Below, piece by piece: positions 4,671 to 23,566 of a DNA stretch of 57,073 bases. Numbering within the stretch: the first letter of the stretch is position 1; each line of letters opens with the position of its first letter. The translations under genes were made by a program, and so were the position numbers. The stretch is from an uncultured bacterium (GTDB taxonomy: Bacteria; Nitrospirota; Thermodesulfovibrionia; Thermodesulfovibrionales; CALJEL01). The stretch lies in contig CALJEL010000016.1 of the NCBI GenBank assembly GCA_938074335.1, forward strand, positions 1-57,073. Reading direction: 5' to 3'. Below the pieces are notes generated by a model. The model made no database searches. It was given only the letters and a program-made list of their open reading frames with translations, and had not been told where the DNA came from.

Positions 4671-5665
4671 TTCTTCTGCCCCTTTCTTGCACCAAAAACC
4701 CTTGTCTTGAAGGCCCTGTCAAGAAGTGGTGCAAAACAGTTCATTATTAGTATTGCAAACATAACACCCTCTGGATAACCTCCCTTTAATCTTATAAGCA
4801 TTGTAAGAAAACCACAACCTATACCAAATATAATCTGAGCCTTCCTGACCATTGGAGATGTAACATAATCTGTAGCCATAAAGAATGCCCCAATCATCAT
4901 TCCACCACTCATAAGGTGAATAAGGGGATCACCTGTAAAGAGAACGCCTTTGCCTCCAAAGACCCATGCTATGACTGCACTTGTCCCGAGAAAACTCAAA
5001 GGTATATGCCATGTTATATATCCCCTCCAGAGGAGGAACAATCCACCAATAAGGATGGCGATCACAGAGGTCTCACCAAGTGAGCCTGCCCTCTGGCCTG
5101 TAAAGAGATGGATATAAAGATTCGCCTTATCACCGAAGAGCTCAAGGAGCCTTCCTATGCCCTCTTCTTTAAGGATCATTAAAGGGGTTGCGGTTGTCTT
5201 TGCATCCACTGTAAATCCAGAGGGTTCAAGCCATGTGGTCATTATCCTTGGCCATGTCAGAAGCAAAAAGGCCCTGCCAATAAGGGCTGGATTAAAGATA
5301 TTGTAGCCAAGTCCACCAAAAAGGTGTTTCGTAATAACTATTGCAACAAAGGAGCCAATAACTGGAAGATAAAAAGGAACTCCTGATGGAAGATTCATTC
5401 CAAGGAGCAACCCTGTGAGAAAGGCACTTCCATCGGAAATGGTCACAGGTCTTTTAGTGAATTTTTCAAAGGCCCACTCAAAAAATACTGCACTCATGAC
5501 AGAAAGGCTGAGGACATAAAGTGCCCTTATTCCGAAGAAATATATTGCCATCACCGTTGCTGGCAACAATGCCAGATTCACTGTCCACATTATCCTTGAG
5601 ACAGACTCTTCAGTCCTTACATGTGGGCTTACAGATACTATTAATTTTTCTTTTATGGCCTCCAT
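4667..5665 (-). CDS. rnfD: Electron transport complex subunit RnfD (covalent FMN)
   Basis: RnfD is a large membrane subunit with a covalent FMN. The product is 332 residues from the ATG at 5665, chosen because GAGGTG lies 6 nt upstream and overlaps the rnfC stop. A longer reading frame to 5698 would overlap rnfC. It begins EAIKEKLIVSVSPHVRTEES, the typical RnfD start, and contains multiple membrane helices. The flavinylation motif TTATPL sits near residue 155. GGLGYNIFNPALIGRAFLL is the conserved family segment. Confidence 0.95.
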   Translation of the reverse strand: MEAIKEKLIVSVSPHVRTEESVSRIMWTVNLALLPATVMAIYFFGIRALYVLSLSVMSAVFFEWAFEKFTKRPVTISDGSAFLTGLLLGMNLPSGVPFYLPVIGSFVAIVITKHLFGGLGYNIFNPALIGRAFLLLTWPRIMTTWLEPSGFTVDAKTTATPLMILKEEGIGRLLELFGDKANLYIHLFTGQRAGSLGETSVIAILIGGLFLLWRGYITWHIPLSFLGTSAVIAWVFGGKGVLFTGDPLIHLMSGGMMIGAFFMATDYVTSPMVRKAQIIFGIGCGFLTMLIRLKGGYPEGVMFAILIMNCFAPLLDRAFKTRVFGARKGQKK

Positions 5666-5672
5666 GCTCACC

Positions 5673-6980
5673 TCACGGTTTAACCAGGGATTTTCCAAGT
5701 CTTATAAACTGGACAATGGGTCTTTTTGAAGGACATACAAAGGCACAGGTTCCGCACTCAAAACAATCAAAGAGATTGTATTCCTTCATCTCCTCATAAA
5801 AGCCCTTCTCTCCAAGAACGCTGAGCATACTTGGCATAAGCCCCATCGGACAGGCATCTACACACCTGCCGCATCTTATGCAGGGCTTAAAGTCCTCGGT
5901 ATGGATAACCTCTGAATCACTCATCACAAGAATTCCAGAGGTTCCCTTTGTAACAGGGACATCTAATCCTGAAAGGGCAAATCCCATCATCGGGCCACCT
6001 GCCACCAATTTACCTATGCCATTTTTGAAACCACCACAAAATTCTATGAGATGGGATACAGGTGTTCCGATCTTTACCATGAGATTTTTAGGGTTTTTTA
6101 TACCCTCACCTGTCACGGTGACCACCCTTTCGATTAAAGGCTTGCCATATCTTACAGCCTCAAATATAGCAAAGGCAGTCCCTATATTCTGCACAACAAC
6201 ACCCACATCCATTGGAAGACCCCTTGGAGGGACCTCACGACCTGTTGTTGCCTTTATGAGCATCTTTTCAGCACCCTGAGGATACTTCACCTTGAGTGCC
6301 CAGACCTCGATCCCTTCAATCCCCCTTACCGCCTCCTTCATCTTCTCTATCGCATCGGGCTTATTGGCCTCAATGCCGATTATACCCCTTTTTACTCCGA
6401 GAATCTTCATAAGGATCTTTAGGCCCTCCACCACCTCAGAGGTCTTCTCTATCATAAGCCTGTAATCAGCAGTGAGATAGGGTTCGCATTCTGCACCATT
6501 AAGTATTACTATATCTATGGGTTTTTCCTTTGGAGGGGAGAGCTTCACATGGGTTGGAAAGGCTGCCCCGCCAAGACCAACTATACCAGCTTCCTTTATC
6601 TTATTCTTGAGCTCTTCAGGAGATAGATTCATGTAATCAGGGTTATCCTTAAGGTTTGTCCATTCATTCTGCTTATCATTCTCTATGACAATTGCCTGTG
6701 AAAATCTTCCGGTCGGTAACTGCACATTCTCTATACCTGTAACCTTCCCCGAGACAGAGGAATGCACTGCTGCTGATACAAAACCCTCTGGTGTCCCTAT
6801 GAGTTGACCTTTTTTGACTGTATCTCCCACATTTACAGCAGGTTTGCAGGGAGCACCTGTGTGCTGGCTGAGAGGGATAATAACCTTTTCAGGTTCTGAT
6901 AAAACCTCTATTGGTGAATCCTTCGAAAGTTCCTTTTTCTCGGGTGGATGTGTCCCGCCCTTGAAGGTTGCAAGAGCCAT
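5673..6980 (-). CDS. rnfC: Electron transport complex subunit RnfC
   Basis: RnfC is the NADH/FMN-side subunit of Rnf. The 435-residue protein has the N-terminal barrel region with the family opening FKGGTHPPEKK, an ILNGAECEPYLTADYRLM motif for FMN/NAD binding, and two C-terminal [4Fe-4S] motifs, CIRCGRCVDACP and CFECGTCAFVCP. It is the first gene of the operon, starting 38 nt downstream of the candidate -10 hexamer, with a GGAGG ribosome site. Confidence 0.96.
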   Translation of the reverse strand: MALATFKGGTHPPEKKELSKDSPIEVLSEPEKVIIPLSQHTGAPCKPAVNVGDTVKKGQLIGTPEGFVSAAVHSSVSGKVTGIENVQLPTGRFSQAIVIENDKQNEWTNLKDNPDYMNLSPEELKNKIKEAGIVGLGGAAFPTHVKLSPPKEKPIDIVILNGAECEPYLTADYRLMIEKTSEVVEGLKILMKILGVKRGIIGIEANKPDAIEKMKEAVRGIEGIEVWALKVKYPQGAEKMLIKATTGREVPPRGLPMDVGVVVQNIGTAFAIFEAVRYGKPLIERVVTVTGEGIKNPKNLMVKIGTPVSHLIEFCGGFKNGIGKLVAGGPMMGFALSGLDVPVTKGTSGILVMSDSEVIHTEDFKPCIRCGRCVDACPMGLMPSMLSVLGEKGFYEEMKEYNLFDCFECGTCAFVCPSKRPIVQFIRLGKSLVKP

Positions 6981-7018
6981 CTTTACATCCTCCTTAATTT
7001 ATAAAAAAGAGCCTATAA

Positions 7019-7048
7019 GTAATAGCACTAACAGGTCTTTTCTGTCAA
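7019..7048 (-). promoter_or_regulatory. Candidate sigma70 promoter of the rnf operon
   Basis: Read on the minus strand, a perfect TTGACA (7048-7043) is followed after 18 nt by TATTAC (7024-7019). The rnfC ATG lies about 38 nt downstream. The sequence fit is good and no other strong promoter is seen in the rnfC-rfbB gap. Confidence 0.6.
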
Positions 7049-7134
7049 GGTAAAGAAGGTAATAGATATATTAAAAATTTTAATTCCCTCACTGGGTTAT
7101 AATAATAAAATTATTCTTTCAGGAAAGGAGCCCT

Positions 7135-8130
7135 ATGAAACTACTCATAACAGGTGGTGCAGGATTCATAGGAAGTGAGGTTGTAAGAAGGGCGATTAAG
7201 AATGGATTCCATGTAGCCGTTGTGGACAACCTATCCTATGCAGGTGACCTCGAGAGGATTAGCGGGGTGAAAGAAAAGATTATATTTTATCGTGTTGACA
7301 TCTCTCAGAGAGATGCCCTTCATAGTGTCTTTAAAAAAGAGACACCTGAAATAGTCATTCACCTGGCAGCAGAAAGTCATGTGGACAGAAGCATTATTGA
7401 ACCTCAGGCATTCCTTCATACAAATGTGATGGGCACCTTCAATCTCCTGGAGCTCTCAAAGGAATTCAGGATAAAGAGATTTATCAATGTCTCCACTGAT
7501 GAGGTCTATGGTGAACTGGGTGAGGAAGGATATTTTACAGAGGAGAGCCCACTCAGACCCAGTTCACCCTACTCAGCAAGCAAGGCATCTCAGGATATGC
7601 TCGGCAGGGCTTACTGGAGGACCTATGGTCTGGCTGTAATAACAGTCAGGCCCTCCAATAATTACGGACCCTGGCAGTATCCAGAAAAACTTATCCCGGT
7701 GGTTATAGCAAAGGCCCTGAATAATGAAAGGATTCCCGTCTATGGAGATGGTAGAAATATGAGAGAATGGCTCTATGTGGAAGACTGTGCAGAGGCAATC
7801 CTCATGATAACAGAGAAAGGAAAGCCTGGTGATATATACAATATTGGAAGCAATGAGGAGAGAAGGAATATAGATGTGGTGAGGGAGATCCTGAGGATTA
7901 TTAATAAACCAGAAGACCTTATTGAATTTGTAAAGGACAGGCCAGGGCATGACTTCAGATACTGCATGAGTATAGAAAAGATTAAAAAAGAAATAGGCTG
8001 GTCACCAAAAACAGGATTTAAAGAAGGGATTGAAAGGACAGTAAGATGGTATATGGCAAACATGGAATGGCTTAACGCTAAAATAAACACACTCAGACAA
8101 TACTGGCAAAGGGTATATAAAAAAGATTAA
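7135..8130 (+). CDS. rfbB: dTDP-glucose 4,6-dehydratase
   Basis: This enzyme converts dTDP-glucose to dTDP-4-keto-6-deoxyglucose in the dTDP-rhamnose pathway for surface polysaccharide. The 331-residue protein has the NAD-binding GGAGFIGS motif at residues 7-14, the STDEVYG active-site segment with catalytic Thr-Asp-Glu, the SPYSASKA segment with the Tyr-x3-Lys pair, and RPSNNYGPWQYPEKLIP. The start has AAGGAG 5 nt upstream. It is followed 3 nt later by rfbD. rfbA and rfbC are not adjacent. Other 4,6-dehydratases of nucleotide sugars are possible but less likely given the motifs. Confidence 0.92.
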   Translation: MKLLITGGAGFIGSEVVRRAIKNGFHVAVVDNLSYAGDLERISGVKEKIIFYRVDISQRDALHSVFKKETPEIVIHLAAESHVDRSIIEPQAFLHTNVMGTFNLLELSKEFRIKRFINVSTDEVYGELGEEGYFTEESPLRPSSPYSASKASQDMLGRAYWRTYGLAVITVRPSNNYGPWQYPEKLIPVVIAKALNNERIPVYGDGRNMREWLYVEDCAEAILMITEKGKPGDIYNIGSNEERRNIDVVREILRIINKPEDLIEFVKDRPGHDFRYCMSIEKIKKEIGWSPKTGFKEGIERTVRWYMANMEWLNAKINTLRQYWQRVYKKD

Positions 8131-10070: not shown

Positions 10071-10484
10071 CTACAAGTTTAAAGATTTTTCAATATATTG
10101 AATATATCTTTCAACATCACTCAGTTTACTTAATGCCTCTGTGCAGATCCGATTATAATCGATCCTTTCATAATCATGGGCAAGAAAATTTCTAAACGAG
10201 GCAATGCGAGCAAAGCTATAAGCAAATTCAGGTGGAATGATTTTATTTTCACCAAGTATATCTATAGCCTCACTATAACTCTGAGGAGTTCTGAGGTCTT
10301 TGTATCTGATGATCATCTCTGCTAAAGAAATAGAGGTATCAGCAATAAGATACAGATAATGTAATAAGGCACCTCTGTATACAGGGTCAATCAAGATCTT
10401 CTTCTCGCACTCCCTCTCAATATCCTTAAGAATTCTGATATATTCCCTCGTCCTTTCAATCCTTATCCTGATCGGTTCTATCAT
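10071..10484 (-). CDS. hepT: HepT-like HEPN toxin (RNase)
   Basis: The 137-residue helical protein contains RNFLAHDY near residue 102, which is the RX4HXY motif of HepT-type HEPN ribonucleases. In studied pairs the tyrosine of this motif is AMPylated by the MNT partner to silence the toxin. The gene overlaps the MNT gene upstream in an ATGA arrangement, as in known mntA-hepT modules, and the dehydrogenase gene follows 13 nt later. Toxicity in this host is inference. Confidence 0.85.
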   Translation of the reverse strand: MIEPIRIRIERTREYIRILKDIERECEKKILIDPVYRGALLHYLYLIADTSISLAEMIIRYKDLRTPQSYSEAIDILGENKIIPPEFAYSFARIASFRNFLAHDYERIDYNRICTEALSKLSDVERYIQYIEKSLNL

Positions 10485-10948
10485 CTTCCAAGAAGGGCCT
10501 TCCTCTGCTCTTTAAAATCTATTGTATCATGAATGATACGGACTTCAAAGTCCTTCCTTAAGGAAATATCTTCATCATACACGATTATGCCCTCTCTGAT
10601 GATATCGTCCATCAAGATAATATTTTGGGTAGTATTAAGGACCAGAAGATCGATATTATTTCTTCTGAGCTCCCTGCTCAGAAAAAGGGTAAGTTGAAGT
10701 TCTTCTTCAAGTGAGGGGCTTCTGTTAAAATATACAGCTATATCAATATCACTAAGAGGTCCTGAAAGACCCCTGGGGATGGAACCAAATAGATAGGCAA
10801 ACCTCACCTTTATGGTATTGTCTGTAAGATTAAATCTCTTAAAGAGCTCCCTTAATTTCTCTTCAATCTGTTGCACAAAACCCTCTGTTTTCACCGTAAT
10901 GCCCACAGAATCCAATAAACCCTTCAATAAAACTGGCAGGCTGCCCAT
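10481..10948 (-). CDS. mntA: MntA-like minimal nucleotidyltransferase antitoxin
   Basis: The product has the nucleotidyltransferase signature GS-x10-DxD in FGSIPRGLSGPLSDIDIAV around residue 52, followed by strands typical of MNT domains. It would AMPylate and neutralise the neighbouring HepT. The 155-residue reading is long at the N-terminus, and its first 12 codons, including the ATG at 10948, lie inside repeat copy 2. Either the repeat supplied the start or translation begins further in, for example at a GTG. The catalytic core is intact. Confidence 0.82.
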   Translation of the reverse strand: MGSLPVLLKGLLDSVGITVKTEGFVQQIEEKLRELFKRFNLTDNTIKVRFAYLFGSIPRGLSGPLSDIDIAVYFNRSPSLEEELQLTLFLSRELRRNNIDLLVLNTTQNIILMDDIIREGIIVYDEDISLRKDFEVRIIHDTIDFKEQRKALLGR

Positions 10949-11260: not shown

Positions 11261-12916
11261 ATGAGGCTTGGCATATCCGCAAAATTTCTTCTTTCAAGTG
11301 GACTTATCCTCAGTCTCTGCCTTGGCATATCCTTTTACATAATTGCAAAGCATCAGGAATCCCTGATTCTTGAACAGGCAAAGAATGAAGCAAGGGCGAT
11401 ATTCAGACAGATAATCCTTACAAGAAAATGGGTTGCTGATCATGGGGGAATATTTGTTGAACAGAAACCATGGATAAAGCCAAATACCTATCTCAGTCAG
11501 GTGGATGAAGAACCTGCCACCATGGATATAAGGGGCAGAAAATTTATTAAACAAAACCCTGCCTATGTTACAAGAGAGCTATCACGATATGCTAAGGAGA
11601 AGGAGCTATACTGGTTCAAGATCACAAGCCTTAAACTTCTAAATCCAATGAATTCACCTGATGAATGGGAAAGACAGGCTTTGAAGGAATTTGAACTCTC
11701 TAATAAAAAAGAAATGGCAGCTTTTCATAATATCAATGGTCAGAGGTATCTCAGATATATTTCACCCCTTTATGTAGAAGATTCCTGTATGAAGTGTCAT
11801 TCAAAGCAGGGATATAGAGTTGGAGATGTGAGAGGAGCAATAAGTGTGACCATACCTGTAGAAAGGACATTTGCGGAAATAGATAAAAATAGAGAGAGGA
11901 TGCTTATAGCAGCCTTACTCACACTATCCATACTTATGACTACGCTGTACTTCTTTGTAAATAAGCTCACACTCTCACCTCTTAAAAAACTAAAAGAAGC
12001 CATACAGGGTTTTTCAGAAGGAGAGGCTCCTCAGAGAGATCTCCTCAGGACAGGTGATGAGATAGAAAGTATTGCCACCTCCTTCTACCAGATGGCAGAA
12101 AGACTCACGGAATATCATAACTGCCTTCATGACAGGATAAAATCTGCTGTTCAAGAACTGGAAGAGACAAATAAAAAACTGATTGAATCAAACAGACTCC
12201 TCTCCGAGACAAATCAAAAAAAGTCTGACTTCATAGCAAGGGCATCCCATGAGCTGAGGACACCCCTGACATCTATAAAAGGGGCCCTTGATTATCTGAG
12301 CCACAGATTAAATATGCTTGGTCTTAATGGAGATGATGGAGAGTTTGTGGAGATGATTAAAAGGAATACAGACAGATTGATAAAAATGGTAAATGATATG
12401 CTTGATATAGAAAAGATTGAAGCCGGGCTTCAGGAACCTAATATCAGAGAATCAGACCTGTGCGTTATAATTAACGAATGCCTTGAAAACTTCAAACTGG
12501 ACGCTGAATCCAAGGGGATAAGATTCTCACTGGAGATGTCACCACCACTACCCTGCCCTGTTGATGAGGAGAGGATAAAACAGGTCTTTACTAACCTCAT
12601 TTCTAATGCCCTGAGATGGAGTCCACCTGATTCAGGTATATCAATAAAGGCAAAAAGGCTCAACGGTACAATCACAGTGGAGATATCTGATAATGGTCCT
12701 GGTATAGATCCTGAGGAACAGCATAAGGTCTTTGAGAAGTTTTATAAAAGATCAAAGGACGGGACAGGACTGGGGCTTACCATAGCAAAGAGCATCGTGG
12801 AAGCACATGGTGGAGAGATAGGTGTAAAGAGCGATGGAAAGCAAGGAAGCACCTTTTATGTCAGGTTAAGGACTGCGGATAGTCCTGAGGGAATCCCGGG
12901 ACTTAAGACAAAGTGA
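11261..12916 (+). CDS. Membrane sensor histidine kinase with c-type haem motif
   Basis: The 551-residue protein has a membrane helix (about 10-28) and a periplasmic sensor domain resembling DUF3365 (Tll0287-like) with CMKCH at residues 176-180, a covalent haem site. A second helix (about 212-232), a HAMP linker, a HisKA domain with ASHELRTPLTS and phospho-acceptor His near 329, and an HATPase domain with NLISNALRWS, DNGPG and GTGLGLT complete it. It is followed 25 nt later by its response regulator. The haem suggests sensing of redox state or a gaseous ligand such as NO. The pair ends against the nitrate operon, so regulating that operon is a reasonable guess but not shown. Confidence 0.9.
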   Translation: MRLGISAKFLLSSGLILSLCLGISFYIIAKHQESLILEQAKNEARAIFRQIILTRKWVADHGGIFVEQKPWIKPNTYLSQVDEEPATMDIRGRKFIKQNPAYVTRELSRYAKEKELYWFKITSLKLLNPMNSPDEWERQALKEFELSNKKEMAAFHNINGQRYLRYISPLYVEDSCMKCHSKQGYRVGDVRGAISVTIPVERTFAEIDKNRERMLIAALLTLSILMTTLYFFVNKLTLSPLKKLKEAIQGFSEGEAPQRDLLRTGDEIESIATSFYQMAERLTEYHNCLHDRIKSAVQELEETNKKLIESNRLLSETNQKKSDFIARASHELRTPLTSIKGALDYLSHRLNMLGLNGDDGEFVEMIKRNTDRLIKMVNDMLDIEKIEAGLQEPNIRESDLCVIINECLENFKLDAESKGIRFSLEMSPPLPCPVDEERIKQVFTNLISNALRWSPPDSGISIKAKRLNGTITVEISDNGPGIDPEEQHKVFEKFYKRSKDGTGLGLTIAKSIVEAHGGEIGVKSDGKQGSTFYVRLRTADSPEGIPGLKTK

Positions 12917-12941: not shown

Positions 12942-13631
12942 ATGAAAATGGAAAAACCTCTTATACTTGTGGTGGATGATGACCAAGATATATTGAAGGT
13001 CCTGAAGGCAAATCTTGAACTTCACGATTTCCATGTCCTTACAGCAGACTCCTGTGCCTCTGCCAAAAAGATATTCCTCCATAAAAGACCTGATTTAATA
13101 ATACTCGATATAATGCTTCCTGATGGGGACGGTGTCCAGATTTGCAGGGAGATAAGAAAAGACCATCCCTATCTTCCTGTTATAATGCTCACCGCAAAGG
13201 ACAAGCTTTCAGATAAGGTAATAGGCCTTGAAAGCGGTGCTGATGATTATATAGTAAAACCCTTTGAGACCCTTGAACTCATAGCAAGAATAAAGGCATG
13301 CCTCAGGAGAACAAAACCGAAAGAAGAAGAGATAAGAATAGGAAATCTCTTTATAGACCTGAAAAGAAGACTTGTAAAAAAATCAGAAAGGCCTGTTGAA
13401 CTCACTCCAAAGGAATATAACCTCCTCTGCTATCTTGCAATAAACAGAGAGAGGGTTGTATCAAGGCAAGAGTTGAGGGAACGCCTCTGGAAGGACAACA
13501 AACTCTATTCCTGGAGCAGGGTCATTGATGTTCATATAATGCATCTCCGAGAAAAGATAGAGGATAATCCCTCAGAACCCTCATATATAGTAACAATCCC
13601 GGGGGCAGGGTATAAGTTCAGGGAGGTATAA
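12942..13631 (+). CDS. OmpR/PhoB-type response regulator
   Basis: The 229-residue protein has a receiver domain (VVDDDQD acidic pocket, phospho-acceptor Asp in LIILDIMLPDGDG, Lys in VKPFETLEL) and a winged-helix DNA-binding domain with PVELTPKEYNLLCYLA and RVIDVHIMHLREKIE. It is partner to the haem-motif kinase upstream. Its stop codon is 1 nt from the convergent napD stop, so the two 3' ends must overlap at the RNA level. Confidence 0.93.
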   Translation: MKMEKPLILVVDDDQDILKVLKANLELHDFHVLTADSCASAKKIFLHKRPDLIILDIMLPDGDGVQICREIRKDHPYLPVIMLTAKDKLSDKVIGLESGADDYIVKPFETLELIARIKACLRRTKPKEEEIRIGNLFIDLKRRLVKKSERPVELTPKEYNLLCYLAINRERVVSRQELRERLWKDNKLYSWSRVIDVHIMHLREKIEDNPSEPSYIVTIPGAGYKFREV

Positions 13632-13632
13632 A

Positions 13633-13881
13633 TTACTCCTCATCATAGCAGAAATAGGCAAGATAGACATTACTTATACCTTCTATCTCTTTAAGGCTAT
13701 CCAGTTCTCTCCTTATCCTTCCTTCCACGCCAGGCATACCTTCAAGGTCTCTTTCCATAAGGAATACTATCTTCTGCTCCTTTATATCGTGAACCTCCAG
13801 GTTTCTTTCCTTTAATGCCTCAATAATTAAAGGTATCGCCTCCCTGTCATTTACCTCAATATAGCCACTCACAATAATCAT
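13633..13881 (-). CDS. napD: NapD-type chaperone
   Basis: This 82-residue ferredoxin-fold protein matches NapD in length and pattern, starting MIIVSGYIEVNDREA and ending with an acidic tail. NapD binds the Tat signal of NapA and assists cofactor loading before export. It is the last gene of the nitrate operon and overlaps napH by 4 nt. The assignment rests on length, pattern and context. Similarity in this family is always low. Confidence 0.78.
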   Translation of the reverse strand: MIIVSGYIEVNDREAIPLIIEALKERNLEVHDIKEQKIVFLMERDLEGMPGVEGRIRRELDSLKEIEGISNVYLAYFCYDEE

Positions 13882-14744
13882 CCAGTTCTCCTGAAACCTA
13901 TCTTTATAAGCCTGCCCTTTGTATTACAGGCGTCCACACACCTTCCACAGTAAATACAGTTTGAATCCCTGAGAGACTTGCGGTCAAGATAGGGTGTGAG
14001 TTTTACCTGCATATAACAGAGCTCTTCGCAGTAGTGGCATTCACCACATTCTCCCTCAAGAAACTTTATCCTGATAAGGCTTAATTTATTAAATAATCCA
14101 TATACCTTTCCAACAGGGCAGAGTGTCCTGCACCAGAGCCTTGGGAAAATATAATCAAGGATCAGAAACAAAACTATCATCCCAACTGAAAATACTATTA
14201 CTGTATTGTCCACAGGAAGCCTTAAGACAAGGAAGATACCTCCTGTCAGGAATCTGAAAAAATTTGTTAAATGGGAAAGATAATTCGTAAAAAAAGGTAT
14301 TCCAATAAGGGCTGAAACAATGAGCAGTATGCCGGCAAGACCGTATCCAATCTTTTCTTTACCCTTTCTGATATTCAATCTTAAGCCTTTAACCCTGTCA
14401 ACCATCTCAAATAGAAGGTCCATTGGACAGACCCATCCGCAAAAGGCCCTGCCAATGATAGTGTAAATAGCAAATACCGGTAGAACTGATACTAATGCTA
14501 TAACCGTTAAGTCCTTTGATGAAAAGAGGTTTTCAAGAAAGGCAAAGACATCTATAAGATTCACAAACCACAGGGCAAGAGAACCTGTCAGGCCTCCAAC
14601 AAGGATCTTTATCCTGAGAAATTGCAACAGGAACAAAGCTATTATCCCGAGCATGACAAAACGCCTGAGTGTTGATAAAGGTATTCTTTTCTTAATTCTG
14701 GGATTCAGCTTTTCTGTACCACCCTTATCTGTATTCACGCTCAA
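13878..14744 (-). CDS. napH: Quinol dehydrogenase membrane component NapH
   Basis: NapH passes electrons from the quinol pool towards NapG and NapA. The 288-residue protein has about four or five membrane helices, the paired motifs AFCGWVCPMD and WCRTLCPVGK, and C-terminal ferredoxin motifs CGECHYCEELC and CIYCGRCVDAC. The reading frame overlaps the end of napG by 20 nt. It is the likely entry of electrons, because no napC or nrfH gene is present. Confidence 0.9.
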   Translation of the reverse strand: MSVNTDKGGTEKLNPRIKKRIPLSTLRRFVMLGIIALFLLQFLRIKILVGGLTGSLALWFVNLIDVFAFLENLFSSKDLTVIALVSVLPVFAIYTIIGRAFCGWVCPMDLLFEMVDRVKGLRLNIRKGKEKIGYGLAGILLIVSALIGIPFFTNYLSHLTNFFRFLTGGIFLVLRLPVDNTVIVFSVGMIVLFLILDYIFPRLWCRTLCPVGKVYGLFNKLSLIRIKFLEGECGECHYCEELCYMQVKLTPYLDRKSLRDSNCIYCGRCVDACNTKGRLIKIGFRRTG

Positions 14745-15477
14745 CTATCTTACCTCTTGCCATTATCTCTGGCATATTCATACCATAGACAATATTGTAT
14801 CGCTCTTCAGGAGGCATTGATAAAAGTTTTCTGAATTCTGCTGTATATTTCTCTTTTACCTCTGTATATCTTTCCCTCCTTATAACCTTTACAGCAGAGC
14901 CTCCAAGGGGACAGTATTTCACACAGAGACCGCAGCCAACACAGTTGTCATTTATATAAGGTTGATTTCCCCACTCACCATAAAAAAAATCAAACACCCC
15001 TGCACCCAGGGGGCAGGCCTTACTACAACTCAGGCAGACATCCCCATTCCAGCCAAAACAGAGACTGAAGTCAATCAATGCCATTCCCATCTTCACCTCC
15101 TCCTTATTTACAGGTCTTAATGCACCAGTAGGACATTTTGCAGGACATTCCATACATAATCCACAGGGAAAATCCCTCATGTTTTTTATAAAGGGGGTCC
15201 CGAAGTTTTTAATGTCCTTCAAGCCCGCTATGGCAATGGCATCATATTTCATCACATGGCAGACATTTACACAGACACCGCAGCCTATACATCTTGAACG
15301 AAATTCCCTCTCTGGCAATGCACCTGGTGGCCTTATGAGCCCACCCGCATCAATATCTGGAAGCGGTCCTGTTTCATCTTCCGTAAAGGCCTGTTTAAAA
15401 ACAGTTAAACCATTACCTGCTATTAAAGCAGGGCTTATTGACAATATTTCTATAAACTTTCTTCTTGAAAGTTTCAT
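14725..15477 (-). CDS. napG: Periplasmic ferredoxin-type protein NapG
   Basis: The 250-residue protein starts MKLSRRKFIEIL, a twin-arginine signal, and carries four [4Fe-4S] motifs, starting CIGCGVCVNVC, CGLCMECPAKC, CLSCSKACP and CVGCGLCVKYC. NapG relays electrons from NapH. It lies 66 nt after napA across a strong hairpin and is followed by napH. Confidence 0.92.
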   Translation of the reverse strand: MKLSRRKFIEILSISPALIAGNGLTVFKQAFTEDETGPLPDIDAGGLIRPPGALPEREFRSRCIGCGVCVNVCHVMKYDAIAIAGLKDIKNFGTPFIKNMRDFPCGLCMECPAKCPTGALRPVNKEEVKMGMALIDFSLCFGWNGDVCLSCSKACPLGAGVFDFFYGEWGNQPYINDNCVGCGLCVKYCPLGGSAVKVIRRERYTEVKEKYTAEFRKLLSMPPEERYNIVYGMNMPEIMARGKIVEREYR

Positions 15478-15491
15478 CTGATGAACTAAAA

Positions 15492-15534
15492 ATAGGCTGA
15501 AGGAGTTGCTTAGATATTATTTCCTTCAGCCTAT
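15492..15534 (-). terminator. Hairpin with T-run between napA and napG
   Basis: A 13-bp perfect stem (15492-15504 with 15522-15534, ATAGGCTGAAGGA) with a 17-nt loop begins 9 nt after the napA stop. In the direction of transcription it is followed by TTTTTAG. It would act as a partial terminator or as a 3'-end stabiliser that lowers napGHD relative to napA. Confidence 0.75.
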
Positions 15535-15543
15535 CTCAGCTAT

Positions 15544-18500
15544 TTATGCAATCACCTTTGCCGGCTCAGCCTGTTTTGTCTTTGTCTTGCCCTTATAAAG
15601 CTTTACTGCAAACATCTTGTAATCTGCCTGGAAGCTAAAGGGATCAAAGGCATCGCGCATTATCATATTGATAAGCTTGTATTCATCAAACCACGGGATG
15701 AATACATAGTCCCACCTCGGACCACCTGTTGCCTTTGTAACGTCCAGGACCTTTGCAGGCAGTTCAATCTTTCCCCTCGGAGATTCCACAATCACGGAAT
15801 CACCATTCTTTATCCCAAGCCTCTTTGCCAGTGCCTCGCTGAGCTCCACATAAGCACCCGGCATTGCCCTGCTGAGTTCAGAGACCCTCGTTGTCATACT
15901 GCCAGAATGCCAGTGCTCTATGACCCGTCCAGTGCATGCACCATATTCATAACCCCTTGTATCAATGATCAGGAGCTCCGAGCCATCTGGTTTTTTGTAA
16001 GAATGTCTTAAACCCGGAAACTCTGCTGGGCTCAAGGCTATGAGCTTGAGGCTATTGCTGTCAGAATCAGGGTCTCCCACGAGGCTTACAGTGTATTTTG
16101 CCACCTCATCAAAGGGAAGGGTACTGTTTTCATCAACCTTCTGGGGATTGAACCTTCTTTCTACAACCTCAACTGTCCTGTATTTTATAAATCCCTTTCC
16201 ATCAAATTTGCATGCCCACCATGGATTTGCCCAGGCAATTGCCCGACCATCCCAGCAGGGGATCTTCTTACCATCCGGTAAATCCACCATACCGTGAATA
16301 AAGGCATTAGAATTATAAAAACTCGCATACCAGCCCTCTGGCAATGCCTCCCTCTTATGATATTCAGAATCTGCCCTCATCTCATTGATATTCTTCTCAA
16401 GCCATGCTCCATAAACAGGATTGAATTCCTTCATATTCTTAATGTAAAAAGCTGTCTTGCCTTCTATATGGGGGTCATAGGGATAGGCATACTGAATGCT
16501 TGAATTGTATTTATCATATCTCTTTCTGATCTCAGGGTCTTTGTGAACCTCCTCAGGGAAGGGAATCCTGTATCCCCAGTTTCTCTCAAGGAGAAGCTCC
16601 CTCTTCATACCGCTGAAGTCATAGCCTGTTCCTTTTGAAAGCTGTCTCAGCTCATCCCAGATATTCCAGGAAAACTTTCTGTTCCAGTCCTTATGCCTTC
16701 CTGCCTCAATGGTCTTTTTAAGCCAGTCCTTACCATCATACTCCTCAGGCCAGAACTGAGATACATGACCTTTTGGTACAATCCCCTTTTCCTCCAGCCT
16801 CCTCATTATACAGGCAAATATGGTGTGATCAGGAAGGGTATTTCCATAAGGTTCAATAACCTGTTTTATAACCTGATATCTTCTCTCAAGATTCCCAAAT
16901 ATAAACTCCTTTTCAAACCAGCTTGATGCTCCAAGCACAATGTCAGAGACCTGTGTGGTGGCATTTGGAAAGGCCTCGAGGGTAACAATAAGAGGCCATG
17001 GTTCGCCCTTCTGAGCAGCACCCATTGCAAGCCTGTACGGCCAGGCATAGGGAAGACTCTGCCCGGCATTCACGGTAGAGATAAATTGAACTTTTATCTG
17101 TCCTGCACCAAGCCTCCTGAACATCTCTACTGTATGAGGACCTGGTTTGTCATGTATCTTTATCTTTTCTGTCTCTGCCTTTATCTCATCTTCTGAAAAT
17201 CCCTTTTTCTTCAGATATTCCGCAGCCCTTTCTTTCCATATCTTTTCCACTGCCTGCCTGTGAAGTGGATTTACCACAAGCCTTCCATAGGGAAGGGCAT
17301 GGCAGAGGGCACCAGGTGCCCTTATCCCACCACAGGCATTTGGCTGACCTGTAAAGCTGAAGGAATGCCTTCCGGGTTTTACAGCCTTACCTGTTATCAA
17401 ATGAAGCATATGCAGTGTGGCATTCGCCCATGTCCCCTGAAGCTTCTGGTTTACACCCATGCACCAGGCAGAAAGCGTATATCCCTCGGCGAACCATCTT
17501 GCTGCAAGCCTTATTGCCTCTGGACCACTCAGTTTCTTCCAGGCCCTTGTTTGTCTGTCATAAAGCAGAGGGGATTCGCCCTCAAATATTATGTCCGATA
17601 CCTTCTCAGGACTGTAATCCTCAAGAAACCTCAGGAATATAGCAAAGCCTTTATAAAGGTCCTTCATTATCTCCTCTTCAGAGGCATATTTCTTCTTTGG
17701 ATCAGGATAGACCTTTCTTGGCGTATTTGTATATGTAAGGTCCCAGACCTCTCCTCTTGTACCTCCATAGCTCGTTTTAATCCATGTCTTCTTTACATCT
17801 TCATGGATTCCAAAGCTCACATGTCTTTCAATAAACTTTTTATCAAGATATTTCCACCTTGCCTCCACAGTACCCTTTTCTACATCATATCTTGCCTCAT
17901 CAAGCTCATGGGTAATTACATAGGCAATGGAATTCAGAAGCACAAGGTCCCTGCCACTTGCAAAGGGTAGCCATAGGTCTGCTATTGTGCCAGAACGGGT
18001 CTTTCTTGGATCAGCAAGTATAACCCTGACTTTATCAGGAGCCTTCTGTTTTAAGGCGGCCATCCTGTTAAATATTATTGGATGTGCTTCTGCTGTATTA
18101 TTGCCAATAATAAAGAATGTATCTGCATGTTTGCCGAAATCAGGATCAGGCACATCTATATCATCAAGTGAACCATAGGGCTCATCCTTACCAAAAGTAT
18201 AGAGATAGCCCACCACTGCAGAGGCCATACACATCCTTGGCTGACCCTCAATAGAATTATTAGCAAGCATTCCTCCACCTTTGAAGACCTTATTCATTAC
18301 ATGGGTCTCCTCAGTGCCAAGCTGACCACTTCCGTAAAAGGCTACACTAAACCTTCCATGCTCTTTTACAGATTTTTCCACTGCAGTAGCAACAAACTCT
18401 ATTGCCTCCTCCCAGGGTATCTCAACAAAGTTTTCTTTAAGGTCAATCTCAGAGGGTTTCATTCCCTTAGGGTCTTTTGTCGTCTTTCCCTGAAGAACCC

Positions 18501-18873
18501 TTGGAGAATTCTTCAGGTCAGGCTTTCCGGTCTTAGGGTTGATCCATTCCTTTCTTATAAGGGCACCCCTTGGTCTTTCCTTATAGGCGATCGCCTTATG
18601 GAGATAAAATCCCTTTGTACATAGAACTCCCCTGTTTACAGGACTTTTGAGGTCACCTTTCAGGCTCAGGACCTTAAGGACCTTTCCTGAATCATCCACC
18701 TCACAATCAGCCACTATTGTACATCCTACTGCACAAAACCTACATTGACCAACTGGTATCGTCTTTACAGGAAAGGGGGCTGCAAGGACCTTTAATGGAC
18801 TCTCAATACCTGCTGCAGAGGCAGCTGCTACTATTGCACTTGTCTTAAGAAATTCCCTTCTGCTGAGTTTCAT
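15544..18873 (-). CDS. napA: NapA-type periplasmic nitrate reductase, enlarged
   Basis: This is a molybdopterin oxidoreductase of 1109 residues, larger than usual NapA (about 750-930). It starts with a Tat signal (SRREFLK). The [4Fe-4S] ligands are C44, C47, C51 and C85 (CxxCxxxC spacing). The segment GSGQ..., RMCMASAVVGYLYTFGKDEP places Cys215 as the molybdenum ligand, exactly as in NapA, and AEAHPI follows. Insertions relative to NapA are visible at about 108-147 and 330-420. Nitrate is the likely substrate given napGHD and the nitrite reductase nearby. A different oxyanion cannot be excluded because of the insertions. Confidence 0.85.
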   Translation of the reverse strand: MKLSRREFLKTSAIVAAASAAGIESPLKVLAAPFPVKTIPVGQCRFCAVGCTIVADCEVDDSGKVLKVLSLKGDLKSPVNRGVLCTKGFYLHKAIAYKERPRGALIRKEWINPKTGKPDLKNSPRVLQGKTTKDPKGMKPSEIDLKENFVEIPWEEAIEFVATAVEKSVKEHGRFSVAFYGSGQLGTEETHVMNKVFKGGGMLANNSIEGQPRMCMASAVVGYLYTFGKDEPYGSLDDIDVPDPDFGKHADTFFIIGNNTAEAHPIIFNRMAALKQKAPDKVRVILADPRKTRSGTIADLWLPFASGRDLVLLNSIAYVITHELDEARYDVEKGTVEARWKYLDKKFIERHVSFGIHEDVKKTWIKTSYGGTRGEVWDLTYTNTPRKVYPDPKKKYASEEEIMKDLYKGFAIFLRFLEDYSPEKVSDIIFEGESPLLYDRQTRAWKKLSGPEAIRLAARWFAEGYTLSAWCMGVNQKLQGTWANATLHMLHLITGKAVKPGRHSFSFTGQPNACGGIRAPGALCHALPYGRLVVNPLHRQAVEKIWKERAAEYLKKKGFSEDEIKAETEKIKIHDKPGPHTVEMFRRLGAGQIKVQFISTVNAGQSLPYAWPYRLAMGAAQKGEPWPLIVTLEAFPNATTQVSDIVLGASSWFEKEFIFGNLERRYQVIKQVIEPYGNTLPDHTIFACIMRRLEEKGIVPKGHVSQFWPEEYDGKDWLKKTIEAGRHKDWNRKFSWNIWDELRQLSKGTGYDFSGMKRELLLERNWGYRIPFPEEVHKDPEIRKRYDKYNSSIQYAYPYDPHIEGKTAFYIKNMKEFNPVYGAWLEKNINEMRADSEYHKREALPEGWYASFYNSNAFIHGMVDLPDGKKIPCWDGRAIAWANPWWACKFDGKGFIKYRTVEVVERRFNPQKVDENSTLPFDEVAKYTVSLVGDPDSDSNSLKLIALSPAEFPGLRHSYKKPDGSELLIIDTRGYEYGACTGRVIEHWHSGSMTTRVSELSRAMPGAYVELSEALAKRLGIKNGDSVIVESPRGKIELPAKVLDVTKATGGPRWDYVFIPWFDEYKLINMIMRDAFDPFSFQADYKMFAVKLYKGKTKTKQAEPAKVIA

Positions 18874-19373
18874 TTCTTTACCTCCTTAATTGAAGGTTTT
18901 ATTGAATAGCTCATTGCACCAACTTTATCACCGGCAGGTGAATAGTCTCCATTTGCAGCTACTGCCATTACTGTAAAAACTACATCTGTCTTTTCAGAGG
19001 GAGCCTGCCATTGAAAGACCCATCTTCTTGATTCATTTCCCTCCTGTGTATGGGTGAGAAATCCATTAATAAGCTGGGTAGTCTTCTTATCCTTAACAAG
19101 TAATTTGCCGGCTGATACCTCAAGGCTGAAGCCACCTTTACTCTCACTCATGCTTTCAAGGTCTGAGTTTACAACAACTGTCATTGTGTATATCTTACGC
19201 GGGACATAAGAAGTCGGTATTCCTTCAATCTTTACGAGCTCAGGAATTATCTCTCCTTCATGACAGCTCAGGCATTCCATATTGGGAGAGCTGTTTCTGT
19301 GACCATAACTGTATGAGATCACCAGGCCAGAAAAAAGAAAGCTCAAAAGAAAGATTATTAATGCCTTCTTCAT
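18870..19373 (-). CDS. Monohaem cytochrome c with Reeler/anchor-V-like domain
   Basis: The 167-residue protein has a signal peptide (about 1-24), one haem motif CLSCH near residue 35, and a beta-rich remainder resembling Reeler or choice-of-anchor V domains (YVPRKIYTMTVVVNS, then a GGFSLEV strand and a GD.SPAGDKVGA end). Its stop overlaps the napA start by 4 nt. Its place between the nitrite and nitrate reductases suggests an electron carrier or a scaffold that replaces NapB. That role is inference, and the domain resemblance is moderate. Confidence 0.75.
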   Translation of the reverse strand: MKKALIIFLLSFLFSGLVISYSYGHRNSSPNMECLSCHEGEIIPELVKIEGIPTSYVPRKIYTMTVVVNSDLESMSESKGGFSLEVSAGKLLVKDKKTTQLINGFLTHTQEGNESRRWVFQWQAPSEKTDVVFTVMAVAANGDYSPAGDKVGAMSYSIKPSIKEVKK

Positions 19374-19391
19374 GACCTTTCTCCTTTTAAA

Positions 19392-19416
19392 AGGGCGGTG
19401 CCAGTGGCATCGCCCT
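19392..19416 (-). terminator. Hairpin between onr and the monohaem cytochrome
   Basis: An 11-bp stem (19392-19402 with 19406-19416, one G-T pair) with a 3-nt loop is followed in the transcription direction by TTTT. It lies 6 nt after the nitrite reductase stop and probably attenuates read-through into the rest of the operon. Confidence 0.65.
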
Positions 19417-19422
19417 AATTCA

Positions 19423-21069
19423 TTATTTTTGCAGCGTCTTTGCTGCTATTGCCTCATTGAGGAGCTTTATGCCCTTCTGTGATTCATCAACAGACATTGT
19501 AAGTGATTCCCTTGCCATATCTGGGTTATGGAAACCATCTGAGTTTTCTGCTGTCCAGAACTCCCAGAGTATATGGGCCCTTAGGTGCTGGTCCTGCGCC
19601 TTCTTGATGGTCTCTTCATCAACCCCTGCCTTCTTTGCTTCAACAATCTTGTCAATCAATGCTGAAAGCCAGAACTCTGCCTTGCGCATCCTACCTTTTG
19701 TATAAGCCTTTATGGAATCAATAACATATCTTGCCTGCTCCTCTGTCCAATTACTGTGGCATCTGAGACAGGTCTCCTTGAGCTGAACTCTCGGCGTTAC
19801 AGCAAAATGAGAGGTATAGACCTTTCCTGTCTTTTTGTCCTTTACCTTTGGAGTATGACAGTCATTACATCCAACACCTGCCTTTGAGTGTTTTGAGTTA
19901 TAGAATGCCTCTGCCTCGGGGTGCTGTGCCTTCCAGAGCAGTCCACCTGTCAAAGCATGTTTAAAGTCAAGGAAATGAACCTTGTTAACATAATGGTCAT
20001 AAAGTTCGAAAACATCCTTATATGGGAAGTGGTTTGTCCTTCTGTCTGCCATTGTTACTGTATATTTTGATGTATCTGGATTTGTCGGGTCATAACCAGG
20101 GTTACAGTTATACTCCACATGGCACTGTCCGCACTGAAGCCTTGTATCGTACCTGTCAAGAAGGGCAATCTTCCTTGTATAACCCCTCACACCAAGATCA
20201 ATTACCTTTATTCCTGTTCTCTTTGAGTCCTTATGCCAGAGGGTATCTCCATCAGGTCTTGTAAGAGCATCTATTAAGGCATCTCTTACAATCCTTGGCT
20301 TTGCTGCATGGGGATCGTGGCAGACAAAACAGTTAAGTCCATGCTGAAGATTCTTTGCAAACTCAGGAACAAATGAGGTTCTTGACCATTTTGCGCCTCT
20401 ATCAGGGTCACCCATGTAGGCCCAGTCAAGAATTTGATCCTGAGTCTTGCACTGCAGACAAACAGGGTTTGCTGCTGCTGCAGTCTGCGGAAGGAATGCC
20501 TTATGCTCCTTTGTATCTGGTTTTGTATCCATGAGCACATCCCATGCCTTGCCGCCTTCAAGGACATATTGCCAGCCATTTTTGGGCTGGAACCTTCCAC
20601 CATAGGCTCTGTCAACTACAAGGTGGTCTATGAGCATCCATTTGTGGCTTCTTGTAAGTGCATGCTCTTTTGTGAAGCCATGTCCCATCATTAGCTTATC
20701 CCAAAAAGGGTTTGGAGACCTGTTTGTAAGCTGTGACTTTTCATCCCTTGCTGGTCTGTGATAAGCCTCTTTCATAAAACTTTCATACTGCTCCTTGTGA
20801 CACTGCCCGCATGCCTCCCAGCTCATATCAGTAACAGGCCTTGTCTCTGGTCCAGGAGATTTTAGATGTTTTTCAAGACCACTGTGACAGTTGACACAAT
20901 TTACCTTTGAATGTTTACCCATGGTGTGGAGCTCCTTAACAGGCCCATGGCACATGTAGCAGTTCTCTACATTCACGGGCTTTTCCTTTGGAGCTGCCTT
21001 CACTGAGCCAGTATAGGCTGTTAAAGCCAGACACGTTAAAACAATGAATATCCAGACACCTCTCTTCAT
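19423..21069 (-). CDS. onr: Octahaem cytochrome c nitrite reductase (ONR/TvNiR-type)
   Basis: The 548-residue exported protein would reduce nitrite to ammonium in the periplasm. Eight haem motifs are visible, at residues 37, 58, 87, 204, 247, 313, 401 and 434. The fourth is CLQCK (204-208), the lysine-ligated catalytic haem of NrfA and octahaem nitrite reductases. CGQCHVEY puts the active-site Tyr at 320, and AQHPE puts the active-site His at 383. NrfA has five haems, so the count favours the TvNiR group over NrfA. Hydroxylamine oxidoreductases lack the CxxCK haem. I chose the ATG at 21069 because GGAGG is 5 nt upstream. It is the first gene of the operon. Confidence 0.92.
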   Translation of the reverse strand: MKRGVWIFIVLTCLALTAYTGSVKAAPKEKPVNVENCYMCHGPVKELHTMGKHSKVNCVNCHSGLEKHLKSPGPETRPVTDMSWEACGQCHKEQYESFMKEAYHRPARDEKSQLTNRSPNPFWDKLMMGHGFTKEHALTRSHKWMLIDHLVVDRAYGGRFQPKNGWQYVLEGGKAWDVLMDTKPDTKEHKAFLPQTAAAANPVCLQCKTQDQILDWAYMGDPDRGAKWSRTSFVPEFAKNLQHGLNCFVCHDPHAAKPRIVRDALIDALTRPDGDTLWHKDSKRTGIKVIDLGVRGYTRKIALLDRYDTRLQCGQCHVEYNCNPGYDPTNPDTSKYTVTMADRRTNHFPYKDVFELYDHYVNKVHFLDFKHALTGGLLWKAQHPEAEAFYNSKHSKAGVGCNDCHTPKVKDKKTGKVYTSHFAVTPRVQLKETCLRCHSNWTEEQARYVIDSIKAYTKGRMRKAEFWLSALIDKIVEAKKAGVDEETIKKAQDQHLRAHILWEFWTAENSDGFHNPDMARESLTMSVDESQKGIKLLNEAIAAKTLQK

Positions 21070-21532: not shown

Positions 21533-23155
21533 CTACCTTCTGCTCCAGTAAGGACTTTTAATATCCTCAAAGGCAGAAAGGGCTGCGAGGGAACCCTGAG
21601 AGACTGCAACGACTATCTGCTTAACGCCACCTGTAATATCTCCTGCAGCATAAACATAGGGCATAGATGTCCTCATATGTTGATCCACGACTATATACCC
21701 CTGTTCATCAAGTTTAAGGCCAAGCATATTTGCAACCCTGTTATTGGGCTCATAGCCTATTGCTATGAAGACACCATCAACAGGGATCTCTCTCACAGAG
21801 CCATCAATATTGTTTTTTATCTTAACTGACTTAACTACCTTATCACCGCTTATCTCGATGACCTCTGAATTCCATAATACCGGGATATTCGCAGTCTTGA
21901 GGCTTTGCTGCAACCTCATCTCTGCCCTGAACTGATCCCGCCTGTGGACAACGGTTACATCTGCGCCAAGGGAATGAAGGTAAATTGCAAAGGTAAGGGC
22001 AGTGTTTCCACCACCAATAACTATGACCTTTTTGCCATCCTTAAAGAGATAACCGTCGCATTCAGCACAATAACTCACACCCCTTCCATAAAACCTCTTC
22101 TCACCGGGGACATCAAGCCTCTTGTTCATGGCACCAGTTGCAATTATTATTGCCTTTGAAATATAAGTTGCCCTGCTGGTCTTTACATAAAATTCACTGT
22201 CCTTTCTGTGTATGTCCTTCACATCTTCTCCGGTATGTATCTTTGCATACTGCGCAGCATGCTGTACAAGAAGCTCCACAAGGGTCTTGCCTGGTATCCT
22301 TGCAAATCCAGGATAGTTCTCCACAACAGGTGTTATTGCCACCTGTCCACCCAGGGCTGTCTTTTCAAGGACCACTGTCCTCAGACCTGCCCTCTCTGCA
22401 TAAATAGCAGCACTGAGGCCTGCTGGTCCGCCACCGATTATTACAAGATCCTTCTTTATGGGTTCTGATGGGACCTCAGTATATTCAAACTTAATTCCCT
22501 CATGAGGTGCCTCTGGATTAAGAAGGGAGTTTATAAAATCATCCTCAGACTCAACACCTGGTGCCGTGAGGATGTCATTTATATAGGTCTGGGGGACAGA
22601 TACTATGCCGAGCTCAAGGGCGATGTCCTTATTCTCATAGATCTCTATAATCTCAACACCTACAAATTCTTTTTTCGCAATCGCAGCAGAGACGGCATAA
22701 CTTACCTGCTGGGGGCAGTAAGGACAGAGCGGACTCACATAAACCTTTATATCTCTTTTTTCCTTGAGTTTCATCAACTTCTTAAGGGATTTATCAGAAA
22801 GCACAGTACTTCCGGTGGAGGCCATGATAATGGTCATTATAAGGGAACGGCCCTCCTCTCCTACAGGTGCACCTGTAAAGCGGATATTATATTTATCAGG
22901 TGCTATAAGAAGGGTTGGTGAGCGAAGGACATTCCTTTCTTTTGATTTTTCATCTCCTATGGTATAAAAGGCTGGTTTAATCTTTGAAGAAAGCTCTCCA
23001 AGAACTGTCAGTAACTCCCTTGCAGCATTGTTAAAGGCGTCATTAATACCCTCTTTTGTGAAGACCTCAATGAGGACTTCTTCTTGGAGATCCCTGAAGG
23101 CATCCCTCAGGACATTCTTTATATCCTCTGTAATCAATTCCCTTTTCTCTGACAT
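21533..23155 (-). CDS. AhpF-like flavoprotein disulfide reductase
   Basis: The 540-residue protein has an N-terminal helical part, a glutaredoxin/PDO-like domain with VYVSPLCPYCPQQV (CPYC redox site), and a C-terminal thioredoxin-reductase module with GGGPAGLSAAIYAERAG (FAD), CAECDGYLFKDG (redox cysteines), GGGNTAL (NAD(P)H) and AAGDITGG. This matches the architecture of AhpF, which reduces peroxiredoxin AhpC. It could equally reduce a glutaredoxin-like protein. The frame stays open to 23551 through repeat DNA, but I chose the ATG at 23155 because the upstream part encodes repeat and octamer tract. Confidence 0.85.
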   Translation of the reverse strand: MSEKRELITEDIKNVLRDAFRDLQEEVLIEVFTKEGINDAFNNAARELLTVLGELSSKIKPAFYTIGDEKSKERNVLRSPTLLIAPDKYNIRFTGAPVGEEGRSLIMTIIMASTGSTVLSDKSLKKLMKLKEKRDIKVYVSPLCPYCPQQVSYAVSAAIAKKEFVGVEIIEIYENKDIALELGIVSVPQTYINDILTAPGVESEDDFINSLLNPEAPHEGIKFEYTEVPSEPIKKDLVIIGGGPAGLSAAIYAERAGLRTVVLEKTALGGQVAITPVVENYPGFARIPGKTLVELLVQHAAQYAKIHTGEDVKDIHRKDSEFYVKTSRATYISKAIIIATGAMNKRLDVPGEKRFYGRGVSYCAECDGYLFKDGKKVIVIGGGNTALTFAIYLHSLGADVTVVHRRDQFRAEMRLQQSLKTANIPVLWNSEVIEISGDKVVKSVKIKNNIDGSVREIPVDGVFIAIGYEPNNRVANMLGLKLDEQGYIVVDQHMRTSMPYVYAAGDITGGVKQIVVAVSQGSLAALSAFEDIKSPYWSRR

Positions 23156-23241
23156 AGGAGCTGTCTTTTTAAAGCTTACATTATAATTCTTTTTCAGGTC
23201 AATCAGAAAGAAAACACCGCAATCTGCCAATAGAAATTTAT

Positions 23242-23386
23242 AATAAACCTTCAATAAAAACTGGCAGGCTGCCCATATTTCGGGGTTCACGGACTGAAGC
23301 TTGTCTTCAGTCCGTGCTCTAAAGGCAATACCAGCACCCCAGAAAATCTGACGATTTTCTGGGGACCCCGCCTGCGACACCTTAAT
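23242..23386 (-). repeat. Dispersed two-hairpin repeat, copy 3
   Basis: This 145-nt element is the reverse complement of copy 1. Hairpin II pairs CACGGACTGAAG (23288-23299) with CTTCAGTCCGTG (23305-23316). Compared with copy 1, two stem positions differ and both are compensated on the other arm. Hairpin I (near 23337-23364) is identical in stem to copy 1. It lies upstream of the AhpF-like gene and next to the octamer tract. Confidence 0.88.
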
Positions 23387-23497
23387 AGAGCGACAGTGCG
23401 ACAGAGCGACAGCTTTTAGTGCGACAGAACGACAGAGCGACAGCGTTGTCGCACTATCGCACTGTCGCACTGTAGCACTGTAGCACTGTCGCTCTAT
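23385..23497. repeat. Inverted arrays of GCGACAG(A/T) octamers
   Basis: About six degenerate GCGACAGA/T units are followed by about six units of the complementary type (CTGTCGCA, CTGTAGCA). The two ends form a perfect 15-bp inverted repeat (23385-23399 with 23483-23497). The region would fold into a long imperfect hairpin. Similar short octamer tracts are seen beside other repeats in the window. Confidence 0.8.
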
Positions 23498-23566
23498 AGT
23501 GAAAACATTCCACATCAGCCACTCTAATCCCTGATGAGGCTTGTACATCATAAATTCATTTTCAGG

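Follow-up and report, generated by a model that had tools for sequence, protein, structure and literature searches.

A candidate respiratory nitrate-ammonification operon in Nitrospirota, with a monohaem cytochrome strictly linked to a long-clade NapA

The window analysed here, a 57,073-nucleotide stretch of DNA from an uncultured anaerobic bacterium of the phylum Nitrospirota (contig CALJEL010000016.1, assembly GCA_938074335.1), carries six genes in tight order on the minus strand (positions 13633-21069): onr, encoding a putative octahaem nitrite reductase (ONR), a gene for a monohaem cytochrome, napA, napG, napH and napD. We consider, with a probability of about two in three, that these genes constitute a single respiratory nitrate-ammonification operon, in which electrons would reach NapA from NapGH via the monohaem cytochrome. 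The open reading frame coordinates agree with the first-pass annotation of the window, which had described a minus-strand series of overlapping or near-overlapping genes: the overlaps are 4 bp (monohaem/napA), 20 bp (napG/napH) and 4 bp (napH/napD), and gaps of 49 bp and 66 bp separate onr from the monohaem gene and napA from napG, respectively. The onr gene starts with the ATG at 21069, and an in-frame TTG lies 15 bp further upstream. The gene order and the overlaps suggest that the six genes are cotranscribed. A gene pair for a sensor kinase and a response regulator converges on the operon, the end of the regulator gene lying 1 bp from napD. The predicted products are listed below, with the basis of each assignment in brackets.

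19423-21069, minus strand: onr, octahaem c-type ammonia-forming nitrite reductase, 548 residues from the ATG (match to PDB 2zo5, Thioalkalivibrio nitratireducens ONR residues, PF02335)
18870-19373, minus strand: monohaem cytochrome of the Reeler/choice-of-anchor V type, with one CxxCH (NF041895, fold, linkage to napA)
15544-18873, minus strand: napA of the long clade, 1109 residues, Mo-bisMGD (bis-molybdopterin guanine dinucleotide)/[4Fe-4S], Tat-exported, periplasmic (PRK13532, PDB 2jio, Foldseek match to 2v45, motifs)
14725-15477, minus strand: napG, Tat-exported periplasmic 4Fe-4S polyferredoxin (NapG/MauM models, CxxCxxC motifs)
13878-14744, minus strand: napH, membrane quinol-oxidising ferredoxin subunit with several transmembrane segments and CxxxCP motifs (NapH models, hydropathy)
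13633-13881, minus strand: napD, divergent cytoplasmic NapA maturation chaperone (PF03927 in homologues)
11261-12916, plus strand: sensor histidine kinase with a periplasmic Tll0287 domain and a CMKCH motif (PF11845, HisKA, HATPase)
12942-13631, plus strand: OmpR/PhoB-type response regulator, partner of the kinase (PF00072 and PF00486, linkage)

A scan of named genomes retrieved 29 loci with a NapA 68-82% identical to that of the window. Most came from Nitrospirota metagenome-assembled genomes (MAGs), and the others from Thermodesulfobacteriota, Caldimicrobium, Desulfurivibrio, Desulfobulbaceae, a Desulfuromonadales MAG and Ca. Kryptonium. Linkage was assessed on these loci together with genomes G001 and G002, and each count covers the loci with the relevant flank. 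The first-pass annotation had proposed a search of genomes for the onr-cytochrome-napAGHD order. In these loci, the monohaem gene lay directly upstream of napA in 30/30 loci, from at least four phyla, onr was linked in 24 of the 28 testable loci, and napG was downstream of napA in every locus with sufficient downstream flank. Of 296 genomes of the phylum, 18 were found to encode the long NapA and 19 the monohaem protein, the gene of which lies in each case directly upstream of a long-clade napA (in the nineteenth genome, G028, the adjoining napA is broken off by the end of the contig). Members of the choice-of-anchor V family in 21 relatives occurred only at monohaem-napA sites, and a search of plasmids revealed no relative of the monohaem protein.

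The octahaem protein is, judging from its sequence, an ONR. It carries a Sec signal followed by three CxxCH motifs, CLQCK as the fourth haem motif and four further CxxCH motifs (7 CxxCH and 1 CxxCK in total). It aligns with the ONR of T. nitratireducens (TvONR; PDB 2zo5, E = 1.5e-171) across 34-550, and a second solved ONR (8rv0, E = 1.5e-155) was also matched, both over the full length; the pentahaem NrfA aligns with the C-terminal part only. Arg131, Lys188, Glu302, Tyr303-x-Cys305, Gln360 and His361 (TvONR numbering) are all kept in the window protein and are invariant in 23 aligned ONRs, with the exception of Cys305 (22/23); the order of the haem motifs, the catalytic residues and the Tyr-x-Cys cross-link pair are all those of an ONR. 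In a PF02335 profile search of the source assembly (2.2 Mb, rated 100% complete, on which the genome-wide absences reported here rest), the window onr was the sole match and there was no pentahaem NrfA. T. nitratireducens differs from the window in this respect, as it also has a pentahaem NrfA (PMC12285233), and in the operon context of its ONR.

NapA is a long form of the Desulfovibrio-type enzyme. It has a Tat signal, an N-terminal 4Fe-4S site, a Cys molybdenum ligand and a bisMGD fold. Across 25 homologues, no variation occurs at the cluster ligands C44/C47/C51/C85, at K87, at the Mo-ligand Cys215 (within P-R-x-C-M-A-S) or at Arg518 (within GQPNACGGIR). The closest solved relative by sequence is the NapA of D. 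desulfuricans (PDB 2jio, E = 1e-124), and the predicted fold, from a moderately confident model with a predicted local distance difference test score (pLDDT) of 70, had the same enzyme (2v45) as its best Foldseek match. The D. desulfuricans NapA (PDB 2nap/2jio) is likewise of the monomeric type without NapB, but its chain of 723 residues is about 390 residues shorter than the 1109-residue window protein and its partner is NapM. The match to PRK13532 (5e-129) is below the equivalog cut-off, and the window protein represents a divergent clade, for which the strict name is ‘NapA-like’. These identities bear out three statements of the first-pass annotation: that the octahaem protein combines eight haem motifs, including one CLQCK, with active-site Tyr and His residues (the equivalents of Tyr303 and His361 in the alignment), that NapA has a Cys molybdenum ligand, and, together with the adjacency of the genes, that this is a linked nitrate-to-ammonium gene set.

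The remaining subunits are more divergent from the available models. NapG, with 4Fe-4S motifs and an export signal, matches NapG/MauM models, and the polytopic NapH, with CxxxCP motifs, matches NapH models (1e-39), both below the equivalog cut-offs. A CxxCH in NapH (CGECHYC) was considered as a haem site and rejected, being read as a ferredoxin motif. The window NapD matches PF03927 at E = 0.0015, under the Pfam cut-off, and its homologues match this family in 13/13 cases (best 6.8e-8). At six loci (L022, L025, L027, L030, L037 and L038), genes are inserted between napA and napG; they include those for PpiC/SurA-like lipoproteins and ResB-type cytochrome c biogenesis proteins, and possibly serve haem-protein maturation.

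The published physiology of relatives supports a function of such a gene set in the reduction of nitrate and nitrite to ammonium. In Desulfurivibrio growing by ammonification, nitrate induces a homologous NapAGHD and ONR (PMC5516251, PMC12142623). Thorup et al. (2017) regarded the NapA of D. alkaliphilus, encoded in a napAGHD set that lacks napB, as a novel type resembling the one in Ca. Kryptonia, and stated that its donor was unknown and the electron flow unresolved (PMC5516251). A 2025 study of D. dismutans gives NapA as upregulated on nitrate and ONR as the proposed nitrite reductase (PMC12142623). Desulfurivibrio shares with the window the long NapA clade (D. dismutans AMeS2, L036; 72% identity), NapGHD, the lack of NapB and an octahaem nitrite reductase with CxxCK. 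The ONR gene of D. dismutans is unlinked from napA (PMC12142623), whereas in the window all six genes lie in one series, together with those of a haem-sensor kinase pair. The D. dismutans locus also has the monohaem gene upstream of napA, a gene that the accessible text of PMC12142623 does not mention.

We infer an electron route of the following kind. Membrane-bound NapH would oxidise menaquinol, and its electrons would pass to periplasmic NapG, to the Reeler-type monohaem cytochrome and to the long NapA, which would reduce nitrate to nitrite. Nitrite would then diffuse through the periplasm to ONR, an interchangeable second module, for six-electron reduction to ammonium; the donor of ONR may be NapG, alone or with the monohaem protein, or else a multihaem quinol dehydrogenase of general function. 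The NapGH of Wolinella is described as a NapC-independent menaquinol dehydrogenase in a work cited in PMC12780646. Several points weigh against this scheme. A single haem in a Reeler fold would be an unusual redox carrier, the scores of NapA (431.8 vs 904 bits and 408.5 vs 930.55 bits) are under half of the NCBIfam NapA equivalog cut-offs, and two NapC/NrfH-like multihaem proteins encoded elsewhere in the genome could feed either reductase.

The monohaem protein carries a signal peptide and matches the choice-of-anchor V model NF041895 (1e-27, 97 bits vs a 42-bit cut-off). Its AlphaFold (AF2) model, built without haem, is a confident beta sandwich (pLDDT 88), for which Foldseek returned the F-spondin Reeler domain (2zot) first (7e-7) and, in third place at 4e-6, cytochrome f from a plastocyanin-cytochrome f complex. 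Cytochrome f combines a beta sandwich with a c-type haem, and the resemblance is no more than suggestive. The protein thus resembles choice-of-anchor V/Reeler proteins in its family match and predicted fold, but, unlike them, it carries a c-type haem motif at the N-terminus and is constantly associated with NapA. The haem motif (C34/C37/H38) is invariant in 30/30 homologues, and His108 and Met136, the candidate second ligands of the haem, are kept in 29/30.

The position of the gene points to a function. In two sister genomes, G012 (L075, 3423-11793) and G023 (L076, 2852-8750), an ONR 83-86% identical to that of the window is encoded beside a different, short NapA (767 residues), in the order onr, a small tetrahaem NapM-like protein, NapA, NapG and NapH. 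This is a module exchange around a conserved ONR: one version has NapM in the slot between onr and napA, the other, as in the window, has the monohaem protein there, and each partner keeps its own type of NapA. In NapB-less systems, the role of electron donor to NapA is attributed to NapM (PMC5317091, PMC5276818), and the simplest reading is therefore that the monohaem protein does the job of NapM. On these grounds, the monohaem protein is probably the electron carrier so far missing from this type of NapA system, the electron supply of which had been reported as unresolved. Whether it is an obligate redox partner, hitherto overlooked, of a widespread long-NapA clade, in which it would replace NapB and NapM and so explain the Desulfurivibrio-type electron supply, seems to us an evenly balanced question.

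Alternatively, the monohaem protein might assist the long NapA in assembly, stability or docking, binding its extra segments for example, with NapG reducing NapA directly. Domains with a Reeler or choice-of-anchor V fold mostly serve in binding or anchoring, the monohaem protein evolves faster (mostly 40-58% identity) than NapA (70-82%), and direct transfer from NapGH to NapA has been proposed for NapB-less systems (PMC5317091). The invariance of the haem motif, the near-invariance of both candidate ligands, and the occupation of the slot of the tetrahaem NapM of the sister operons argue against such a role, which we consider unlikely, although it is the best placed of the alternatives.

A less probable alternative is that multihaem quinol dehydrogenases of the NapC/NrfH type, encoded elsewhere, feed the reductases, with NapGH and the monohaem protein as accessories. 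A PF03264 (NapC/NrfH family) search of the genome gave three matches outside the operon. Two of them, on other contigs (L001, G000:C89 3190-4206; L002, G000:C25 ~3576-4493), score above the PF03264 cut-off; they are membrane-anchored, carry 11 and 10 haem motifs respectively, are 40% identical to each other and are widespread in the phylum. The third, a weak match (L003), was rejected as NapC/NrfH because it has three haem motifs and looks like DsrJ. The 11-haem family has relatives in 88/296 genomes of the phylum and is common in those without the system, but gave no match in 9 of the 19 genomes carrying monohaem-napA, and it is therefore not an obligate donor; the constant position of napG after napA points in the same direction. 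The two proteins are thus probably not the dedicated donors. The same genome gave no PF03892 (NapB) match, no NrfH-sized tetrahaem protein among the PF03264 matches and, among molybdopterin enzymes, no second Nap or Nar, the others being formate dehydrogenases and NuoG-, PhsA- and TtrA-like proteins. A napB or nrfH elsewhere in the genome, which the first-pass annotation had named as grounds for abandoning its proposal, was therefore not encountered. Its description of the system as devoid of NapB, NapC and NrfH holds for NapB and for dedicated NapC/NrfH proteins, but has to accommodate the two multihaem relatives, in view of which its statement that electrons can come only through NapGH was too strong.

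The first-pass annotation also envisaged channelling of nitrite in a complex of the two reductases, through or beside the monohaem protein. This would fit the adjacency of the genes in most loci, but complexed ONR and NapA should move together and they do not. In the congener G001, NapA and the monohaem protein are 89% and 69% identical to those of the window, and the adjacent ONR is only ~50% identical. A HAO-like octahaem protein fills the onr slot at two loci (L015 and L077), which suggests an alternative nitrite reductase; in all, HAO/IhOCC-like octahaem proteins with 8 CxxCH were found near monohaem-napA at L015 (5825-7282), L043 (8194-9416), L077 (5773-7197) and L028 (14738-16438). At L018, onr (5433-7157) is inverted, lying on the opposite strand and divergent to monohaem-napA. 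ONR was present in 51/296 genomes of the phylum, 16 of them among the 19 with the monohaem protein and 35 without it. Mirror-tree correlations of pairwise distances between genes were mostly 0.2-0.8, too alike to tell partners apart, and only the in-situ swap of ONR was informative on partnership. The monohaem-napA pair is therefore constant, whereas its ONR may be swapped for another, give way to a different protein, be inverted or be unlinked, and we regard channelling as very improbable; a functional pairing of NapA and ONR is supported, a physical coupling is not. The monohaem protein belongs to NapA: the electron link that had been proposed for it remains plausible with respect to NapA, but not as a bridge between the two reductases.

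Equally improbable is the action of the long NapA on an oxyanion other than nitrate, which its sub-cut-off scores and ~390 extra residues might suggest, given that all the inspected catalytic motifs are conserved, the nearest structures and folds are those of NapA enzymes, the Desulfurivibrio orthologue is strongly induced on nitrate (PMC5516251, PMC12142623), and the gene is linked to those of ammonia-forming nitrite reductases.

Much of the idea has published precedents. Modules of Nap with ONR are known from Trichlorobacter ammonificans and T. lovleyi, in which the two are clustered or paired for periplasmic nitrate ammonification (Sorokin 2023, via the accessible part of PMC11972089, where no monohaem Reeler protein is described), and napAGHD without napB has been published for Desulfurivibrio. 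The napMADGH clusters of Thermosulfurimonas dismutans and Dissulfuribacter (PMC5276818) and the napM cluster of Caldithrix, accompanied by an epsilon-HAO (PMC5317091), also have a NapGH-fed Nap that lacks both NapB and NapC, and close to it a candidate for an octahaem nitrite reductase, but they contain tetrahaem NapM in place of the monohaem Reeler protein and a HAO-type protein in place of ONR. The new elements are the strict monohaem-napA linkage and the fold of the protein, the exchange between NapM and the monohaem protein, the inclusion of ONR in one and the same operon in Nitrospirota, and the linkage to a haem-sensor two-component system; no report of these four was found in the literature searched, the coverage of which was incomplete. 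The monohaem gene provides a concrete donor candidate, given its constant position beside the long napA. Should this candidate be correct, a one-haem protein of the Reeler fold would do the job of two- and four-haem proteins elsewhere, and this gene set should serve as the marker when nitrate ammonification is annotated in subsurface Nitrospirota, which have neither nrfA nor napB.

Activation of the operon probably falls to the kinase and the regulator, with redox state or a nitrogen oxide as the signal. The CxxCH of the Tll0287 domain is kept in 13/13 aligned kinase homologues, and the kinase is a candidate sensor of such signals. The kinase and/or the regulator occur within ~8 kb in about half of the loci, and the c-haem kinase with its OmpR-type regulator accompanies monohaem-NapA and NapM-NapA operons alike (the window, L015, L016, L018, L025, L030-L033, L038, L039, L042, L043 and L075), a pair of the same type adjoining the onr-napM-napA operon of G012 (L075).

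The kinase gene is itself adjoined by a toxin-antitoxin-like pair of the HEPN/MNT nucleotidyltransferase type (10071-10948, minus strand), recognised by motifs only. Upstream of onr lies a gene for a thioredoxin-reductase/AhpF-like fusion (21533-23551, minus strand), a relative of which, 89% identical over the part available, is found near onr in G001 (L074).

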